Below are positions 37,854 through 52,386 of a stretch of DNA of 64,000 bases, in pieces (the first letter of the stretch is position 1; every line of letters starts with the position of its first letter). The stretch lies in NCBI GenBank assembly GCA_913061265.1, contig CAJXVS010000007.1, forward strand, positions 62,001-126,000, given 5' to 3'. The position numbers and the translations under genes were made by a program. The DNA comes from an uncultured Halobacteriovorax sp. (lineage in GTDB: Bacteria > Bdellovibrionota > Bacteriovoracia > Bacteriovoracales > Bacteriovoracaceae). Under the pieces are notes generated by a model. It was not told where the DNA came from. It was given only the letters and a program-made list of their open reading frames with translations, and ran no database searches.

Positions 37854-38639
37854 ATGAAAATGAAGAGATTTATCCCCGTTCTATTCGTTACCTTACTCAC
37901 AATCTCAGCTGCTCAAGCAAAGATTTTCTCGGAGAAGGTTCACTTATTTAGTCAGTCAAAGTCAGATACTTGGAATAAAACTACTGCTCAAATTGACCAA
38001 GAAAATCAAGCACACCTTTCCGAATTTGTGGCAATGGAAGTGGAAGGCAGAAGCCGTCAGTCTATCAATATTGTGGATGCAGATGATGCTAAGTTTTTAA
38101 GCCCTAGAGTCGCTAGAGACGTTCTATCAACACTTAGAATGCACCCTGTAGTATCTCTTTACCAATATGAAAAATACGATCCAAAGAATCAAGGAATTGG
38201 CTTTTGTTTTGGGCGAGCGATGTTTGTTCACTTAGAACTGGCCATGAGAAACCTTGATAGAGACTCGATCAAGAAGGCCTTCGTTGTAGGTCATATGAGT
38301 ACTGGCGACGGAAATTCTTGGGGATGGCATGTAACCACGATAGCCCAAAGTAAAGATGAGAATGGAGATGAGATTTGGCTAGCGCTTGATCCTGTAACAG
38401 GGCTTAAGACTTTAAAAGAATGGTATAAAGAAATGTATAACCACTTCTCTACAGATCAAAAATTAAAGATCTACGTAACTGAGTCTGGCAAATTTGGACC
38501 AACTCCTGGTTTCTATAACCAAATCGGTCTTGAAAATGAATTTTACAATAGCTACTTCACAGATCTTAACGAAGCCTTTGTTAAGGCCTCTATAGCTGGA
38601 AGGTATGATACTCCTATAGCTGAATTCGAAATCAAATAA
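37854..38639 (+). CDS. Exported papain-fold protein, protein-glutaminase-like
   Basis: 261 residues with signal peptide (ending ISAAQA). A Cys-His-Asp arrangement is visible: GIGFCFGRAMFVHLELA (C118), NSWGWHVTTIAQ (H159), and EIWLALDPVTGLKTLKEW (D179). This order and spacing resemble secreted protein-glutamine glutaminases (deamidases), which share the papain/transglutaminase fold. The assignment is from motif layout, so a related papain-like hydrolase remains possible. Preceded by a good ribosome binding site (CCTAGGAGAACCT) and copy B of the structured repeat, and followed by a terminator. Confidence 0.6.
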   Translation: MKMKRFIPVLFVTLLTISAAQAKIFSEKVHLFSQSKSDTWNKTTAQIDQENQAHLSEFVAMEVEGRSRQSINIVDADDAKFLSPRVARDVLSTLRMHPVVSLYQYEKYDPKNQGIGFCFGRAMFVHLELAMRNLDRDSIKKAFVVGHMSTGDGNSWGWHVTTIAQSKDENGDEIWLALDPVTGLKTLKEWYKEMYNHFSTDQKLKIYVTESGKFGPTPGFYNQIGLENEFYNSYFTDLNEAFVKASIAGRYDTPIAEFEIK

Positions 38640-41247: not shown

Positions 41248-42030
41248 CTAATCAAGCTCAACAATAATATAAGGTCTCTCAACTCGAACACCTTCCGCAG
41301 CTTCTTTCTCAATCGCCTCAAAAACCTTCTTCGTAACATTAAGAAAACTGGCCTTAGCCTTATCTAAACGAATTCGAAGCTCAGCTCCAGAGTTTGTTTT
41401 TAAGTAGTCTATCTTTCCATTCGCTTTAATATTGGCCGTGATATCAAACTTAGCGCGAACGCTTAAATTAAACTTTCCGTTCTTAACGGTCATGGATAAA
41501 TTCTCTAGTGTAGTTCTAGTATTTGATCTATCAGTTTCGTAGATATCAAAAAGAGCTGATTTTAAAAGGCTATTTCTTAAACATACATCAAAGAGAGCGT
41601 CTCTTGTTTCAGCTCGTGAGGAAGATCCAGAGCAGCTGAAATTAAATTTCTTGATAAGAAGCAGTCCACTTTCATCAGAGCCCGTTAAAGAATCAATGCC
41701 TAGGTTTAATCCACTGGCTTCACTTTTGAAGGAGGAGCCTTTCCAGTTTAAGGAATTCATCTTTACGATTGAATCAGGAAGTCCCTTTAATTCATAAAGA
41801 CCAGCGTCTCCTTCAAAGACAAAGAGGTCTTGTTCTTGAAAAACGCTAAACTGGGCATTTTGTAGGGGGGCACTATCAGGTACTTTCCAAAACGATGCCG
41901 TGGCGCTGCCTGCTGGGTGAGTGTATCTTCCGTTTAGGTCTTGAATATCGATGAGCGGGAGCCCGTTTGCTAAAGATATTTGGCTGAATAAGATGGCCAC
42001 GAATAGAATAAATGCTCTCTCAATACTCAT
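41248..42030 (-). CDS. Exported protein of unknown function (260 aa)
   Basis: Signal peptide MSIERAFILFVAILFSQISLA; the mature part is beta-rich with repeated patterns of alternating polar and hydrophobic residues (FNLSVRAKFDITANIKANGKIDYL) such as lipid-binding or AsmA/LEA-like beta sheets show. Two Cys residues (NFSCSGSS, DVCLRN). The family is not recognised. It lies 96 bases upstream of the 631-aa exported protein gene on the same strand; the two may be one transcription unit. Confidence 0.7.
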   Translation of the reverse strand: MSIERAFILFVAILFSQISLANGLPLIDIQDLNGRYTHPAGSATASFWKVPDSAPLQNAQFSVFQEQDLFVFEGDAGLYELKGLPDSIVKMNSLNWKGSSFKSEASGLNLGIDSLTGSDESGLLLIKKFNFSCSGSSSRAETRDALFDVCLRNSLLKSALFDIYETDRSNTRTTLENLSMTVKNGKFNLSVRAKFDITANIKANGKIDYLKTNSGAELRIRLDKAKASFLNVTKKVFEAIEKEAAEGVRVERPYIIVELD

Positions 42031-43161: not shown

Positions 43162-45249
43162 TTATTTACTTCGCTTGAATATTTTTGTAAGAATGTCCGA
43201 ACATTTTGATTTCAACATTGAAGTTCCAACATGAAGAAGATCTATGTTCTTTAAAGGATAATCATTCTCTAGATTCATAAAACGAAAAACTTTATGTTTC
43301 ACTGCGAATTGTTCAACAAATTTAACCTCAATACCGCCCATCTTTACCGCATTTGGTAGCTGATTCACGAGCGCTCCCCCTCGGGTTAGGACACCTAAGT
43401 CATCGGGGATTTTAAATCCATTTTTGATCCCCCAAGTAACCCATTCAGCCTGGTCCTTTTTTCCATTTTTAACGAGCTCATCTTTAATAACACGAGTTAG
43501 CTCTTTGTAACTTAGGTTAGACTCATTGTTTCCAAATAATAATAGTGATTTTGCGATAAGTTTAGGGTCATTATAAGCAGCACCGGCTCCTATTAAAATA
43601 AAGGCTCTTTTGGTCTCCTTGGTGATTTTGATATTCATTCCAAAATCAAAAAAAGTAATTTTTATTTTCTTCCCATCCTCTGAGAGAAGTACTTTAAAGT
43701 TTCCTTCATGAAGATCAGCGTGGGTGTATCCAGAGCGAAAAAGGGCTTCATCAACCCATAACTTGGTAATCTGTTGAGCTGCCACCTTTTTGGCGGTCTC
43801 ATCAGTTACTTCTGAGAACTTTGTTCCTTCCCCTATAAACTCAGTAACAACAAGCTTAGTAGAATCTAGGTTTTGTGAGGGCTCATAAAGTTTTGGGACA
43901 TTGAAATCAATTAAATAAGAATTACTCTCAAGTTTCGTTTTAATAATCTTCGAGTAGACATCCTTTGCTATTCGATGATTTTCTAGTGTTAGAGGGATAT
44001 TCATATCTGCCTTTAAAAACTCATCAAGAGTTTTTAAAAGTTTATCTAAATCGGGAACTTCCATACCTACGACTGAAGAGTCTTTTTTCATTCGTTCAAA
44101 TACATTCCCTAATATCTTCATATCAGCACTTGCTCTTTTTTCAATTCCCGGTTTTAAAAACCTTACAGCAACTTCAATTTCTTCTCCATCTCTTAAAATA
44201 ATGGCCCTATGTACTTGAGCGACTGTACCTGTCCCAACAGGAAATGGATCTATATGAACAAACTTGTATCCACCTGGGTCTGATCGAATAATTTGAAGTG
44301 CTAAGTCAGGCGGGACTGGTTTGCCTTCACTTTCGAGCTTTGACATCATCTCAGCAAGAGCATCACCCATTCCTTGTTCTCTACCAATCTGCTGTAGTGT
44401 CTTTCCAAGTCCTGGTCCTGAATTATTGAAAATGATCTGGATGGCCTCTTCTTCGGATGGGCGATGACCTAATTTCATTGAATCTGAAAGCATATTTTTA
44501 AAAATATCGATATCGGCTTGATCATAATAATCGTTTATAAACTCCTTAACTGATTTCTCCCAGAAGGGTTGATTAAACTTAATATCTTCTGATTCACTAA
44601 GCTTCTTCGCTGCATTTTTAAATTGAGTTATGTATTCATCTATTTCTTCTTCTGCTACGTTGAGGCTTTTTAAAATCTTATCCTCGTTGTTTGAAGAATT
44701 AGACATATGTCTTAAGAAGTTAAATGATTTTTCCTTCATTTGGGAGTTCGAGGTCTTCCATTGGTTTAAAATATTTGGATCTAAATTTGAGATAACTTCT
44801 AATATTGAATTAAAATTGGCACCAATCTTTGGTAAAGGAACTTCTTTTAAGGATTTATTTAAGAATTCGACTTCAGATTCGACAGTCCAAGATGGAGCTT
44901 TCTTTAATTTAAATAGTTCTGAATCTCCATTTGTTTCTATTGTATAAATATTATCCATAATTTGTGATGAAGCTTTATTGAAATATGTTTGGGCATCTCG
45001 AACTATCTTAATCTTTTCTTCATCGCTTTTATAAGATGCATGCAGGATATAACGAATCATATTATCTCTGAGAATAAGTAATTCACTTTTTTGACTATCA
45101 TGAATGGCTTCCCAACCATTCTCAGCAATTTCTTGGGCTAAATTATTGAGGTCAACTGAACTTGGAACTCTTGTTGATTTAGGTGTGCATGAAGTTAAAT
45201 TAGTTAACAGCAATAAAAGAATCACATGAATAACTGCAACAAACCTCAT
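43162..45249 (-). CDS. ABC1/UbiB-type kinase-like lipoprotein
   Basis: 695 residues with motifs of the ABC1/AarF/UbiB atypical kinase family: GPGLGKTLQQIGREQG (about 278-293, in place of the KxGQ motif), GTGTVAQVHRA (339-349, the Ala-rich-loop equivalent), HADLHEGN (510-517, catalytic loop) and FFDFG (533-537). The usual ATP-binding Lys in VAVK is Arg (VAVRFLKPGIE, R363). Unusually, the N-terminus is a lipoprotein signal peptide (MRFVAVIHVILLLLLTNLTSC, lipidated C21), so the kinase-like domain would lie in the periplasm where ATP is scarce. About 250 residues of helical unknown sequence precede it. Ribosome binding site AGGAG is clear. Confidence 0.85.
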   Translation of the reverse strand: MRFVAVIHVILLLLLTNLTSCTPKSTRVPSSVDLNNLAQEIAENGWEAIHDSQKSELLILRDNMIRYILHASYKSDEEKIKIVRDAQTYFNKASSQIMDNIYTIETNGDSELFKLKKAPSWTVESEVEFLNKSLKEVPLPKIGANFNSILEVISNLDPNILNQWKTSNSQMKEKSFNFLRHMSNSSNNEDKILKSLNVAEEEIDEYITQFKNAAKKLSESEDIKFNQPFWEKSVKEFINDYYDQADIDIFKNMLSDSMKLGHRPSEEEAIQIIFNNSGPGLGKTLQQIGREQGMGDALAEMMSKLESEGKPVPPDLALQIIRSDPGGYKFVHIDPFPVGTGTVAQVHRAIILRDGEEIEVAVRFLKPGIEKRASADMKILGNVFERMKKDSSVVGMEVPDLDKLLKTLDEFLKADMNIPLTLENHRIAKDVYSKIIKTKLESNSYLIDFNVPKLYEPSQNLDSTKLVVTEFIGEGTKFSEVTDETAKKVAAQQITKLWVDEALFRSGYTHADLHEGNFKVLLSEDGKKIKITFFDFGMNIKITKETKRAFILIGAGAAYNDPKLIAKSLLLFGNNESNLSYKELTRVIKDELVKNGKKDQAEWVTWGIKNGFKIPDDLGVLTRGGALVNQLPNAVKMGGIEVKFVEQFAVKHKVFRFMNLENDYPLKNIDLLHVGTSMLKSKCSDILTKIFKRSK

Positions 45250-45522
45250 TTTTTCTCCTGACTCTTTATCGGTAAATATAGGGAGTTGTTTAAATTCTCT
45301 ACTCTTTTTCTCAACATTAATATATCAGGTGGCTAGAACTGTTTAAAAAGTTGACACCCAATATAGCTTTTTAATTGGGAAAAGGACCATAGCACTACTT
45401 TAAAGCCGTCTAGAAAGGGATCTAAGACCCTTTAATCCGTTACAGCTTCCGTAACTAAAACTTTACCGAGACCCTAGTGAATTTTGCAGATTGCTTTAAG
45501 GTGAAATCACCAGGAGGCAAAT

Positions 45523-46275
45523 ATGAAAGAAATTCTACTAGTCATTTTCATATCATTAACATCAGCAAAGCTTTATTCAACAGTAAGACCCTTACCCGGA
45601 ACGACATTAGGTGAGGTCAATAGAGACTGTCTTCTTTGGGCATCAAAGAGTGATGGCCAACTGGTAGTCGCTTTTGAAGGGTTAGGGGCCTTTCGTAAAA
45701 AGGCGGCGAAGAAGCTTTACGCCTATCATGATTTGTTAAAGAAGGGCGGAAGTGTGATGAGTCCTTCGAACGGTAGCATGGCCTATGTCACGGATAATGT
45801 CTTGATCAAGAATTTGAGCCAGACTTATGACAAATCAGAGTTTTTAATTCTTCCACACTCTAAAGAAGGGAAGGAGAAAAGTATTTCTTATCAATGTGTA
45901 AAGGCCTGGCATAAAGTTCATAAAGAGAACTTGAGGCTTATCATCGTTGGTCATAGCTTTGGTGGAAACGCTGCGAAGAGGTTAATGAATACTCTCTTTG
46001 ATAAGATTTCAAACCTTAAAGTTAAGGCCATGCTTAGCCTTGATCCTAGGCTTAAGAGCCGCTTTGTTACTAAGGCAAATATTAAGAAGCATTATGTGTT
46101 TTATCAAAAGGGCTTTCTTAGAGGCTATCCTTATAAGGACAGTCGAGGGGATGAGTTTACTAAGAATATTGTTGTTCCTGGTTCGCTGATCAATGGTCCT
46201 GAAGGGAACAACCACGCAAACTTAACTCTTTATAAAGATGTGCAGAGAACTTACCTTGATTTAATTCTTTTTTAA
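45523..46275 (+). CDS. Exported alpha/beta hydrolase, lipase-like
   Basis: 250 residues with a signal peptide (MKEILLVIFISLTSAKLYS). Nucleophile Ser145 in IIVGHSFGGNAA, a likely Asp in MLSLDPRLK, and a likely His in EGNNHANLTLY near the C-terminus make a complete catalytic triad. The substrate could be a lipid or ester, acting in the periplasm or outside. Strong ribosome binding site CAGGAGG. A 273-base AT-rich upstream region contains an imperfect hairpin (CCCAAT/ATTGGG around 45358-45379) but no clear promoter. Confidence 0.85.
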   Translation: MKEILLVIFISLTSAKLYSTVRPLPGTTLGEVNRDCLLWASKSDGQLVVAFEGLGAFRKKAAKKLYAYHDLLKKGGSVMSPSNGSMAYVTDNVLIKNLSQTYDKSEFLILPHSKEGKEKSISYQCVKAWHKVHKENLRLIIVGHSFGGNAAKRLMNTLFDKISNLKVKAMLSLDPRLKSRFVTKANIKKHYVFYQKGFLRGYPYKDSRGDEFTKNIVVPGSLINGPEGNNHANLTLYKDVQRTYLDLILF

Positions 46276-47023: not shown

Positions 47024-47785
47024 CTAAAGTTGTGAATAGAGGTAGTTTAAGATGTTCGTTTTCGTCATAGAATCAAGAAGACCAAGTCCCATGAACTGAA
47101 GGTTCTCATTCATGACGAAGATATCTTTTGAATTATTGAAGAAGTTCCAAAGCCATTCGTGGACGATTAACCATGAAAGGTTTGCGTCATCTAGCTGATT
47201 GATTAATTGAGAATCAAGTTGATAAATAATCCTTGAACCAGACTGGACTCGTCTCACAGCCTGAAGCACATCACAATTAATACTAAAGAGCATTCCAAAA
47301 AGCCCCGGTAGTTCATCGTGTAGTACTGCTGGTTTGGTAAAGGCCTTAGATTGAACCTGCTTCATAAAAGATGTTTTAAAGCTAAGGAGAGATTCTCCCA
47401 TACTTCTATCTAAGTGATAGAGTTCTTTGATAACGAGGTTGATATGAGATGCTTTATAATTGTAATAAGAGATTCCACCAGTTTGATGAGAGCTTTTTGA
47501 TAAGAAGTAGTCCGTAAAATAAAGGCCATCTTTACAGCTGGCGATATCTCCACCATTTCCAATAATTGTGCCACTATCGCCTTCATCACCACTTTTTTGT
47601 TCTAGCTTTTTAATCAACTCTTTCATTTCCTTGCTATCCATCTTTGGCTTTTTAGTGACAAAGAAGGGCAGGCTTCCATTTTCTTCGAAAAGGACTATCT
47701 CTTGGACCTTTGGTCCTTTCAAGATCCACGCTTCATCAGAGGCGAACGAGGTAGATATAAAAAAGAGGAGAAGGAGTATTTTAAT
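47024..47785 (-). CDS. Exported GNGGD-HE protein with probable ATT start
   Basis: The only in-frame start of a usual type is TTG at 47722, but that would remove the evident signal peptide. Reading from ATT at 47785 gives KILLLLFFISTSFA-SDEAW, a perfect Sec signal, with AAGGGG 7-8 bases upstream. The ATT overlaps the stop codon of the regulator gene (ATTAA), as an ATG would in a coupled pair. The mature part has IIGNGGD (residues ~74-80) and LIVHEWLWNFF (H209, E210), as in the 52.4-53.4 kb protein, but the second zinc His of HExxH is missing. Likely a secreted, possibly non-catalytic relative. Confidence 0.65.
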   Translation of the reverse strand: MKILLLLFFISTSFASDEAWILKGPKVQEIVLFEENGSLPFFVTKKPKMDSKEMKELIKKLEQKSGDEGDSGTIIGNGGDIASCKDGLYFTDYFLSKSSHQTGGISYYNYKASHINLVIKELYHLDRSMGESLLSFKTSFMKQVQSKAFTKPAVLHDELPGLFGMLFSINCDVLQAVRRVQSGSRIIYQLDSQLINQLDDANLSWLIVHEWLWNFFNNSKDIFVMNENLQFMGLGLLDSMTKTNILNYLYSQL

Positions 47786-48650
47786 GAAGATTCCCCTTAG
47801 TATTTGTTTTAGTTACTGGATAGAGCTGAATATTACAATGAAAGACCTCGGTTTTAGTGACATCTTCATCGTTAACGAGGCATTCTTTTTCTAATTCTTT
47901 AATAAAGTCTTTGAGGCGGTTAAACTTATCTAAATCCCCTTGAAAAGTGACTGAAGAGAAATACCTTTCCTCTGGGGCTACATCACTTAGGGCAGTCTTA
48001 CCTAAATCTAAAACATCACTATGATATCTTTGAATATCTAGGTTCTGACCTTCCTCGGCTGTCTTTTGAATTTCTTTGTTTGAAGTTAAATTACCTTTCT
48101 CATCATGAGTGATAAGACCTAAGCTGCTTAAGTCATCAATCACCTCGCCTAAGAGGAGACCTTTATCTTTTAGTCTAAAAAGTGACTTGAGCTCTTTTAA
48201 ACTTTGTATCTTCTTGTTTGAACTTAGAAGTTCCTTAACTGAGAAGTGTAGCCAATGAAAAGCTACGTTAAGAATATTCTTATCTATATTTCTTGATTCA
48301 TGCCCTCGTGATCTTCGTAGCTGACTTCTTAAAAGCTGAGAAGAATCAACTCCTATCGGATCAATCGATTGAAGCTCTACTAGATTGAGAAAATGTTTTT
48401 CCTCTGCCTTTGAGAACTTAAAATAATCGAGTAGTAAAAAAAGGTGTTCCCCTTTAGGGACTCTATCACCACTCAAATAGTGGTGAAGTGAAGCTTTTGA
48501 TTTAAAGCCTATAGACTTCGCTAAAGAGCCCACGCTAATTCGGTGGTTTAGCTCCTTTTTGAACCTTAAAACATCTCCTAGATACTCATGAGCGCTTAGG
48601 TAATTGAATACGACGGGAGCTACGGGCTCCATGGTTAATTCTATTGGCAT
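47781..48650 (-). CDS. TIGR02147-family transcriptional regulator
   Basis: About 289 residues: an N-terminal helix-turn-helix (VGSLAKSIGFKSKASLHHYLSGDRVP, then LLDYFKFSKAEEKHFLNLVELQ) followed by the DUF4423 domain (FHWLHFSVKELLSS, LIEDLSSLGLITHDEKGNL-like segment, RYFSSVTFQGDLDKFNRLKDFI, NIQLYPVTK ending). This is the family known from Fibrobacter and Bdellovibrio. The start is uncertain: an in-frame TTG (48668) or ATG 48632 are alternatives. Coupled to the exported GNGGD gene by a 5-base overlap, so it probably controls that gene or its locus. Confidence 0.85.
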   Translation of the reverse strand: MPIELTMEPVAPVVFNYLSAHEYLGDVLRFKKELNHRISVGSLAKSIGFKSKASLHHYLSGDRVPKGEHLFLLLDYFKFSKAEEKHFLNLVELQSIDPIGVDSSQLLRSQLRRSRGHESRNIDKNILNVAFHWLHFSVKELLSSNKKIQSLKELKSLFRLKDKGLLLGEVIDDLSSLGLITHDEKGNLTSNKEIQKTAEEGQNLDIQRYHSDVLDLGKTALSDVAPEERYFSSVTFQGDLDKFNRLKDFIKELEKECLVNDEDVTKTEVFHCNIQLYPVTKTNTKGNLH

Positions 48651-48725
48651 AGGATAAGTATCTAACAAAAGAGGCTAGAGAGGGGGGAAGTTGAATTCTT
48701 TTTAGGGCCGTCTAAACTTTAGCCG

Positions 48726-49496: not shown

Positions 49497-49523
49497 TATA
49501 ATGGAGACTGAATACCTATAATG
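49497..49523 (+). promoter_or_regulatory. Promoter-like TATAAT and possible overlapping leader peptide
   Basis: ACCTATAATG occurs twice, 20 bases apart, the second copy containing the regulator's ATG. The first TATAAT (49497-49502) is a perfect -10 element, but no -35 is evident. From ATG 49501 a six-codon ORF (METEYL) ends in TAA that shares its last base with the regulator's ATG (TAATG), suggesting a coupled leader peptide. If transcription instead starts ~7 bases after the -10, the regulator mRNA would be nearly leaderless. Both readings are inference. Confidence 0.3.
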
Positions 49524-50258
49524 AACTTACGAGAACAGGTCTCAACCGACTTAAGCAATTATCTGAATGGGTTTTCTGACCCAAAGAAGGCCGTTCGTCT
49601 TGCCTCTATCAATATTGGAATTCACCAGAAGACTCTAAAAAGGTTAGTTGAACAAGATAATACACCAACCTACCTAACTCTTTATAAGATCTACCGAGAA
49701 ATCTTCAAGATCACTAATGACTCTCTCTTATTACAAATGGTTCCTAAAGTGGTTAAGACCGAGCTTATTAGTGAAAATCCAAAGGATATTGTTAGTCATA
49801 TTCAATTCAATGTTGAAGTTGAAGATGAAATCAATTCTGACCCTGTCTTTATGGATATCTACTTCTTGTCGAATGCGGGCGTTTTAACCAGAGAGTATAT
49901 TCAATTTAAGTTTGGTGAGTACGGCCTCTCGATAGTGAGCAAGATGATAAAAAATAACATCTTAGAGCTAAATGATAAGGGAGTCTTTGTTCAAGGAACA
50001 AATCAAGCTAACTTATCTCCAGCGACTATTAAACGATCCGGGCTTTATATGATTAACAAATATCTTTCTCCTGAGGACTGTGAGGAGAGAGGGAAGAATT
50101 TTTGTGGAGTCTTTGTTGAAGGACTGACTGAAGAGGGATTCAACGAATGGCTGAAAGTTGATTATGAGGCTTATTATAAGAAGGTTGAAATTTCAAAGAA
50201 ACATAAAGATAACAAGGGAATCAAGGCGTTTACTTTTATGGCCACTGATTCCATGTAA
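49521..50258 (+). CDS. Helix-turn-helix regulator of the secreted-protein locus
   Basis: 245 residues without signal peptide. The N-terminal ~70 residues look like an HTH (AVRLASINIGIHQKTLKRLVEQDNTPTYLTLYKIYREIF). A second winged-helix-like part follows (VLTREYIQFKFGEYGLSIVSKMIKNNILELNDKGVFV), then a C-terminal domain. The architecture is like TIGR02147 proteins but I see no clear DUF4423 motifs, so it may be a different family. It is 10 bases upstream of the small exported protein gene at 50269, as a dedicated regulator would be. No good ribosome binding site. Confidence 0.65.
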   Translation: MNLREQVSTDLSNYLNGFSDPKKAVRLASINIGIHQKTLKRLVEQDNTPTYLTLYKIYREIFKITNDSLLLQMVPKVVKTELISENPKDIVSHIQFNVEVEDEINSDPVFMDIYFLSNAGVLTREYIQFKFGEYGLSIVSKMIKNNILELNDKGVFVQGTNQANLSPATIKRSGLYMINKYLSPEDCEERGKNFCGVFVEGLTEEGFNEWLKVDYEAYYKKVEISKKHKDNKGIKAFTFMATDSM

Positions 50259-50982: not shown

Positions 50983-51489
50983 ATGAAAACACTTTTTATT
51001 CTAGTTGCCACACTTCTAGTAACAGCATCGGCTTCGGCGCATACGCCTACTGCTTCAGACTCTTGGGATACGATTCGTAGCCATTATAATAGAGTTGAAG
51101 TTGATGAGCCGTCAGTAAGACTTGATGTTGGAGCTTTAACAACTTCTGCCTTCTTTGTTTGTATTGATGGAAATCAATTAAGAACTCTTAAAAAATTCAC
51201 AAGATGTCTTGAATGGTCAAATGATGACGATGAAGATTCAAGCCGTCGTTGTAGACGTGAACAAAAGTATTACGGAACAGCAGCTATCGAGTCGACAAGA
51301 CAGAGATGTGTTGATTGGACTGAAGTTGATTCAGGTGATTCTACAGAAACTATCTGTACTGAATACGAAGACTACTCATACACTCAACCACTTACTTTCA
51401 ACGTCAATGTTTATAGAGAAAGTGACGGCGATGAATATAGAGGAAGAAAACTTTTCACTAAAACTCTTACTCTTAAAGATTGTAAATAA
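50983..51489 (+). CDS. Small exported acidic Cys-rich protein P3
   Basis: 168 residues, signal peptide MKTLFILVATLLVTASASA. The mature part has seven Cys (FVCID, TRCLEW, RRCRRE, QRCVDW, TICTEY, KDCK and others) and acidic stretches. Its ending RGRKLFTKTLTLKDC recalls the SRKLFSKKK part of P2, so it may be a distant member of the same group. The leader has a GCCCGTCAGGGC hairpin before the ribosome binding site CGGAGAAACA. Terminator downstream at 51500. Function unknown. Confidence 0.7.
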   Translation: MKTLFILVATLLVTASASAHTPTASDSWDTIRSHYNRVEVDEPSVRLDVGALTTSAFFVCIDGNQLRTLKKFTRCLEWSNDDDEDSSRRCRREQKYYGTAAIESTRQRCVDWTEVDSGDSTETICTEYEDYSYTQPLTFNVNVYRESDGDEYRGRKLFTKTLTLKDCK

Positions 51490-51543: not shown

Positions 51544-52386
51544 ATGAACGAAACTATAGAGAAGCCCAGAGTATCAATCTTTGATTTCGATAATTATCGA
51601 GATTTTCTTATTAAGGTAGGACTACCAGATGGTCTCTACTCGCACTCTTCAAACAACCTCCAATCTTGGTCTAAGCGTTTAGGCTATAAATCTTCAAGTT
51701 CATTAACAATGGTTTTAAAGGGACAACGTCCTCCAAGCTCCGAAATGTTAGGTGCCATTGCTGAAGACCTAAAGATGAACACTAGAGAAAGGAATTACTT
51801 TGAACTCCTTATCCAGTTTGAAAAACTTAATAAGAAGAACAAGGATTCTAAGAAAGTCTTAGAAAAGATTGAAAGATTGAACTCTGATAAACAGGCCAAC
51901 TCTCTTGGGCTAAAGGACTTCTCTGCTATTAGCGAATGGTACTTTCTTGCTATAAAGCAACTTATCTCCACTCCTTCGTTTGTTGAAGATGAGGGGTGGA
52001 TTTTTAGAAAGCTTAGGCGAAAGGTGACGCTCTCTCAGATAAGAAGCGCCTTATCGATCATGCTTGAGAAGAAGACGATTGCTAGAGACGATGACGGTAA
52101 GTTGATTGTTCTAAAGCCAGGTCTAATCACAACCAATGATGTTCCAAGTTCTGCCATTAGAAGGCATCACTTTGGAATGATCAACCGCGCCCTCGAAGCG
52201 ATCGAGGAACAAGACGTCTCTCAAAGACAAGTGACTTCTGTCACGATGAAATTTAAGGAAGAACATTTAGAGGCCGCCAAGCAAAGCCTCTTTGAATTTG
52301 TGAAGGATTTTAATAACAAATATTCAGATAAAGAAGCAGATGATCTCTATCAAATGAATATGCAGTTCTTTAAACATACTAGGTAA
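51544..52386 (+). CDS. TIGR02147-family transcriptional regulator
   Basis: 280 residues with the full TIGR02147/DUF4423 layout: SIFDFDNYRDFLIKVG, HTH region LQSWSKRLGYKSSSSLTMVLKGQRPPS, MNTRERNYFELLIQFEK, then WYFLAIKQLISTPSF, IRSALSIMLEKKTIARDDDGKL, NDVPSSAIRRHHFGMINRAL, and an MNMQFFKHT ending. It mirrors the minus-strand regulator 47781-48650. The exported metalloprotease-like gene follows after 4 bases, so the two are one operon. Likely an autoregulator of a secreted protein locus (inference). Confidence 0.9.
   Translation: MNETIEKPRVSIFDFDNYRDFLIKVGLPDGLYSHSSNNLQSWSKRLGYKSSSSLTMVLKGQRPPSSEMLGAIAEDLKMNTRERNYFELLIQFEKLNKKNKDSKKVLEKIERLNSDKQANSLGLKDFSAISEWYFLAIKQLISTPSFVEDEGWIFRKLRRKVTLSQIRSALSIMLEKKTIARDDDGKLIVLKPGLITTNDVPSSAIRRHHFGMINRALEAIEEQDVSQRQVTSVTMKFKEEHLEAAKQSLFEFVKDFNNKYSDKEADDLYQMNMQFFKHTR

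Follow-up and report, generated by a model that had tools for sequence, protein, structure and literature searches.

A predicted exported branch of ABC1/UbiB-like proteins with a rebuilt nucleotide pocket in Bdellovibrionota

Proteins of the UbiB type are found in all domains of life, and the role of their ATP pocket is debated. The window examined here (the whole 64,000-nt stretch of Halobacteriovorax sp. DNA) raises the question of what such a protein could be doing behind a lipoprotein signal peptide. The gene concerned, at 43162–45249 on the minus strand (the strand of all its parts given below), is an exact open reading frame of 695 aa with 19 orthologues. Its ATG start is supported by a Shine-Dalgarno sequence, AGGAG (45255–45259, minus strand), read directly 5 nt upstream. 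An earlier note had called the product ABC1/UbiB-like, with the motifs HADLHEGN and DFG, and this was borne out. Residues 328–567 (43549–44268) match the ABC1 atypical kinase-like domain PF03109 with an E-value of 2.5e-24 and 86.2 bits, against a curated cut-off of 22.9, and the fold model agrees; the catalytic loop HADLHEGN lies at residues 510–517 (43699–43722) and DFG at residues 535–537 (43639–43647). The score against the UbiB equivalog TIGR01982 was 93 bits, which falls below its cut-off of 487.55. The source genome has four ABC1 genes: two are ordinary (L001 and L002), and two encode lipoprotein signals, namely the window gene and L003, the latter predicting a protein of 857 aa with the lipobox ISSC16.

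The N-terminus of the window protein, MRFVAVIHVILLLLLTNLTSC, has a charged n-region, a hydrophobic core and a lipobox (LTSC) ending in Cys, as expected of a lipoprotein. The predicted Sec signal peptide comprises residues 1–20 (45190–45249), and the residue predicted to be lipidated is Cys21 (45187–45189), with Thr at the +2 position. For comparison, 60 relatives were set against 54 ordinary homologues, a grouping made by profile score and thus partly circular. By rules of hydrophobicity and motif, rather than a trained predictor, a hydrophobic N-terminal signal was assigned to 59 of the 60. Among the 54, only 10 near-identical Pelagibacterales proteins had a hydrophobic N-terminus, and the roughly 30 ordinary ABC1 proteins compared from this phylum all lacked an N-terminal signal. 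The earlier note had claimed a lipoprotein signal with C21 as the lipobox Cys, and had named orthologues without the N-terminal segment as the observation that would speak against it. Instead, the signal peptide is kept among the 19 orthologues (from 129 genomes of the order) at an identity of 31–38%. To judge from these sequences, the signal is more than a chance coincidence.

The lipobox itself is present in 14 of the 19 closest orthologues and absent from five, and the signals of Bdellovibrionaceae members have SPase-I-like sites at their ends, such as WAQA in L077 of Bdellovibrio bacteriovorus. The conserved trait is therefore export, with the lipid anchor as a variant. Where the earlier note had proposed surveying orthologues for both the lipobox and an Arg in the ATP pocket, the Arg proved conserved but the lipobox did not prove universal. 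In this organism the window protein is nevertheless a predicted Sec/SPII lipoprotein. Under the Lol rule of E. coli, Asp at +2 leads to inner-membrane retention; since the window protein has Thr there, it is probably anchored in the outer membrane, on the periplasmic side.

The N-terminal stretch could also be read as an uncleaved membrane anchor, with an ordinary UbiB-like domain facing the cytoplasm, as the five orthologues without a lipobox and the membrane association of UbiB-type proteins would allow. This reading is very improbable: in most members a lipobox or SPase-I-like site directly follows the hydrophobic core, and the stretch precedes a large extra domain, while in the genome's own L001 the hydrophobic stretch is C-terminal. 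Moreover, changes in the pocket accompany export, while the ordinary paralogues retain Lys, the Ala-type loop and KxGQ.

Trees provide a check more independent than the profile-score grouping, and both were built without the columns of the loop and beta3 traits. They group the exported proteins in a single clade (SH-aLRT 99), which holds when the roughly 30 ordinary ABC1 proteins of the phylum are added. Because a group with the ordinary beta3 Lys is sister to the group with Arg (support 98), export probably preceded the change of the pocket. The 60 relatives are nearly all from Bdellovibrionota, including Bacteriovoracaceae and most of the sampled Bdellovibrio species. A single-sequence scan of genome contigs detected no relative, but a profile built from the 19 orthologues detected members of the branch in 64 of the 369 genomes of Bdellovibrionota; at least 21 of these belong to the genus of B. 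bacteriovorus. When some 85,000 species genomes were scanned by pattern, exported members were essentially confined to this phylum, with a few MAGs under broader names. Three relatives (G021, G127 and G298) have open frames of 1549–2014 aa with weak ABC1 matches, that is, very large proteins with a kinase-like domain.

This distribution, together with the conserved export signal and the presence of the gene in the B. bacteriovorus genus, would suit a predation protein that is secreted or surface-exposed in the prey and uses prey ATP on prey lipids or proteins, much like the exported effector suggested in the earlier note. However, the Sec signal is the only one seen, and the loci have no conserved secretion partner. 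The gene is also patchy in the window's own family, with two genomes of the same genus lacking it, as would be expected of a gene that is accessory to predation and not obligate for it. We consider the predation role quite unlikely.

The nucleotide pocket differs from that of the ordinary homologues in several elements. As the earlier note had observed, the beta3 ATP lysine (K358 in COQ8A) is replaced by Arg, here Arg363 in the motif VAVR (44161–44163), and alignment shows the replacement to be conserved: Arg occupies the position in 54 of the 60 clade members, and without exception in an alignment of the window protein with 18 orthologues, whereas all 54 ordinary homologues have Lys. The position of COQ8A A339 is Gly in 54 of the 60 and Ala in 54 of 54 others. 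Where UbiB has an Ala-rich loop, the clade has G[T/V]GT, which in the window protein is GTGT (residues 339–342, 44224–44235, with Gly341 at the A339 position). The Gly of UbiB KxGQ is kept in none of the 60 and in all 52 of the others that could be aligned; the clade form is Kx[L/F]Q, with KTLQ aligned at residues 283–286 (44392–44403) of the window protein. Of the 57 Arg-type proteins that align at the alphaC Glu, none retains it, the residue being Thr, Ala, Ser or Gly instead (Thr421 in the window protein). Among the basal Lys-type proteins, the alignment shows this Glu in L025 and L026, and the motif ELDFxxE shows it in L033, while L191 is not alignable at the position; L086, which lacks the Glu, seems to have changed secondarily from Arg to Lys. 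The window protein has D415-M-N417 in place of the ExD motif, which many orthologues retain. Asp512, Asn517, Asp535 and Arg623 (43381–43383, by alignment the UbiB-family Arg, R611 in COQ8A) do not vary in alignment A1 and hardly vary across the clade. That an exported ABC1 family with a rebuilt pocket exists, centred on Bdellovibrionota, seems to us very likely.

Replacement of the beta3 Lys by Arg often lowers or abolishes phosphotransfer, and ATP is scarce in the periplasm. The latter would favor an extracytoplasmic pseudokinase whose fold serves as a protein-binding scaffold of the envelope and binds no nucleotide; a lone C-terminal Cys in these proteins would suit a covalent partner. The usual rule for a pseudokinase is the loss of at least one of the beta3 Lys, the HRD Asp and the DFG Asp (PMC12599244). 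The window protein falls under this rule through its Arg, both Asp residues being kept, and in the Arg-type clade the beta3 Lys and the alphaC Glu are both lost. The pseudokinase scaffold suggested in the earlier note is thus half supported: the protein counts as a pseudokinase by the strict definition, but not in the sense of decay. Unlike in decayed pseudokinases, the catalytic Asp, the metal-binding Asn and the DFG Asp are kept in nearly the whole clade at low identity, the loop has become more Gly-rich, and the Lys-Glu pair has changed together, which points to a pocket that was retuned rather than dead. Other bacterial pseudokinase families with a Lys-to-Arg change and no alphaC Glu have also been modelled as ATP binders (PMC12599244). 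We regard the nucleotide-free scaffold as a serious alternative, if on the unlikely side.

A precedent for such retuning comes from COQ8A, in which the engineered A339G change raises ATPase activity, reverses the preference for ADP and permits autophosphorylation, and in which the KxGQ element inhibits kinase activity (PMC4718504; PMC7263595). By alignment, comparable changes occur naturally in the exported clade. Neither "decayed pseudokinase" nor "misplaced UbiB" describes the window protein. Its retained catalytic residues argue that the pocket could still bind metal-nucleotide, whereas the loss of the Lys-Glu pair speaks against turnover as an ordinary kinase. It is unlikely, in our estimate, that these are extracytoplasmic UbiB-type enzymes still catalyzing phosphoryl or nucleotidyl chemistry, whether in the periplasm or in the prey, by means of the Arg/Thr pocket and Gly-type loop and possibly with a donor other than ATP.

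The AlphaFold2 model of the mature window protein (pLDDT 82, pTM 0.81) has COQ8A as its top PDB match (Foldseek E 2e-9; VIA Z 17.5, rmsd 4.0, 333 residues). The match to 7udq_B pairs residues 245–636 of the model with 258–644 of the chain, and in this predicted structure it includes the KxGQ region and N-terminal GQ helices. The next matches were mycobacterial ABC1 proteins (Z 12–15) and RIO kinases (Z up to 11.7). Residues 34–244 (44518–45150) form an N-terminal all-helical region. The N-terminal 236 mature residues are predicted to fold alone as a helical domain (AlphaFold2 pLDDT 83), which had no convincing match in the PDB: the top VIA hit was a designed repeat protein (Z 5.1), and no Foldseek E-value was under 1.

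The C-terminus carries a lone cysteine, Cys683 (43201–43203), which the exported clade conserves: 59 of the 60 clade members, and six of the 54 others, have a Cys among their last 30 residues. The Bdellovibrionaceae proteins have it within a short motif at the terminus, for instance [RS]C[EQS]xxF, preceded by a linker of low conservation, and many clade members have no other Cys in their mature form. This pattern suggests an intermolecular disulfide or a modification. The idea of a general C-terminal export tag was ruled out, as ABC1 proteins make up 20 of the 23 single-Cys C-terminal cases among exported ORFs.

Synteny around the ABC1 genes extends only within genera, and no conserved operon, secretion partner or lipid-metabolism partner was found across genera at the loci compared. 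The sole cross-genus neighbor is a secreted protein of ~260 aa, encoded in the window by the adjoining gene (41248–42030, minus strand) and also present at L037, L040 and L044, in three genomes of one other genus. It was rejected as a partner because these loci are too few. The ABC1 gene appears to work alone, as far as gene order can indicate. On the other side lies a divergent gene (45523–46275, plus strand) for a 250-aa product whose N-terminus resembles a signal and which has the nucleophile elbow GHSFGG; from weak profile matches, it is a probable secreted alpha/beta hydrolase or lipase. Both lipoprotein ABC1 loci carry a gene pair, since that at 49521–50258 and 50983–51489 of the window has paralogues ~6 kb downstream of L003 (L054, 16249–17653). 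Elsewhere in the window are a gene for a secreted 261-aa protein (37854–38639, plus strand) with a weak match to Gln_deamidase_2 (PF18626, E 1.1e-3, below the cut-off) and, a few kb apart, two TIGR02147/DUF4423 HTH regulators (47781–48668, minus strand, and 51544–52386, plus strand).

Since the window protein is predicted to be exported on a lipid anchor and its ATP pocket is consistently rebuilt, it probably serves a new function in the envelope rather than acting in quinone synthesis. We propose a nucleotide-gated envelope protein that handles a hydrophobic ligand, and give this mechanism as a whole, which is argued by analogy, about two chances in five. In the rebuilt pocket the Lys-Glu pair has become Arg-Thr/Ala, the Ala-rich loop a Gly-type loop, and the KxGQ Gly a bulky residue. 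ADP or ATP in the periplasm of the predator or of its prey would bind there; because ATP is scarce in that compartment, a switch of this kind would need nucleotide derived from the prey or from the cell itself. The bound nucleotide would switch the conformation of the protein, which might then extract, shield or hand over a hydrophobic ligand of the envelope, either a quinone or another lipid. The C-terminal Cys could tether the protein through its disulfide or modification. Of this picture, the sequences show the export signal, the clade, the pocket substitutions, the modelled fold and the conserved Cys, while the outer-membrane site, nucleotide binding, the lipid ligand and the function of the Cys are inferred. 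The proposal of a lipid ligand draws on analogy with UbiB and Cqd1, rather than on any conserved lipid-metabolism partner. Cqd1 and Cqd2, which are UbiB proteins outside the matrix, control the distribution of CoQ, and Cqd1 needs its kinase-like residues (PMC8346625).

Our literature search found no paper describing an exported bacterial branch of ABC1/UbiB proteins, and the main text of the predatosome paper does not name ABC1, AarF or ubiquinone. The branch offers a widely conserved, apparently undescribed Bdellovibrio envelope protein that is testable in a laboratory predator-prey system. By alignment, the exported clade has arrived naturally at the Ala-to-Gly loop replacement by which COQ8A was activated in the laboratory, and it has also exchanged the salt bridge and modified KxGQ. 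Its Arg-type and basal Lys-type members provide a natural experiment for separating features of nucleotide use from those of lipid handling.

Among known systems, the window protein is a member of the ABC1 domain family and may work like UbiB. The UbiB label is unsuitable, however, since the equivalog cut-off, KxGQ, the Ala-rich loop, ExD and the Lys-Glu pair are all missed. With UbiB, COQ8A (ADCK3) and Coq8, the atypical kinase-like ATPases of CoQ biosynthesis, it shares the ABC1 domain, HxDxxxxN, DFG, the R611-equivalent Arg and, in the predicted model, a similar fold that includes the N-terminal GQ helices. Unlike them, it is exported, has Arg at beta3, no alphaC Glu, a Gly-type loop and KxLQ, bears an extra N-terminal helical domain and a C-terminal Cys, and scores far below the equivalog cut-off. 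The mycobacterial proteins Rv3197 (MABP-1) and MSMEG_1954, the top sequence match of solved structure (E 8.6e-7), have a bacterial ABC1 fold (Z 12–15), but they match the kinase-like part only and have the beta3 Lys, and neither a signal peptide nor a rebuilt pocket was noted in the alignment. The bacterial Lys-to-Arg pseudokinases DYD and ActPs2 also have Arg at beta3, and DYD likewise lacks the alphaC Glu, but these are Ser/Thr kinase families and not ABC1 proteins; the review that treats them makes no mention of ABC1, UbiB or the periplasm (PMC12599244). Likened by description, yeast Cqd1 and Cqd2 place a UbiB-family domain on the non-matrix side, the analogue of the periplasm, with Cqd1 facing the intermembrane space. 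Cqd1 differs in that it is eukaryotic, has no lipoprotein signal and requires the canonical kinase-like residues and UbiB motifs.
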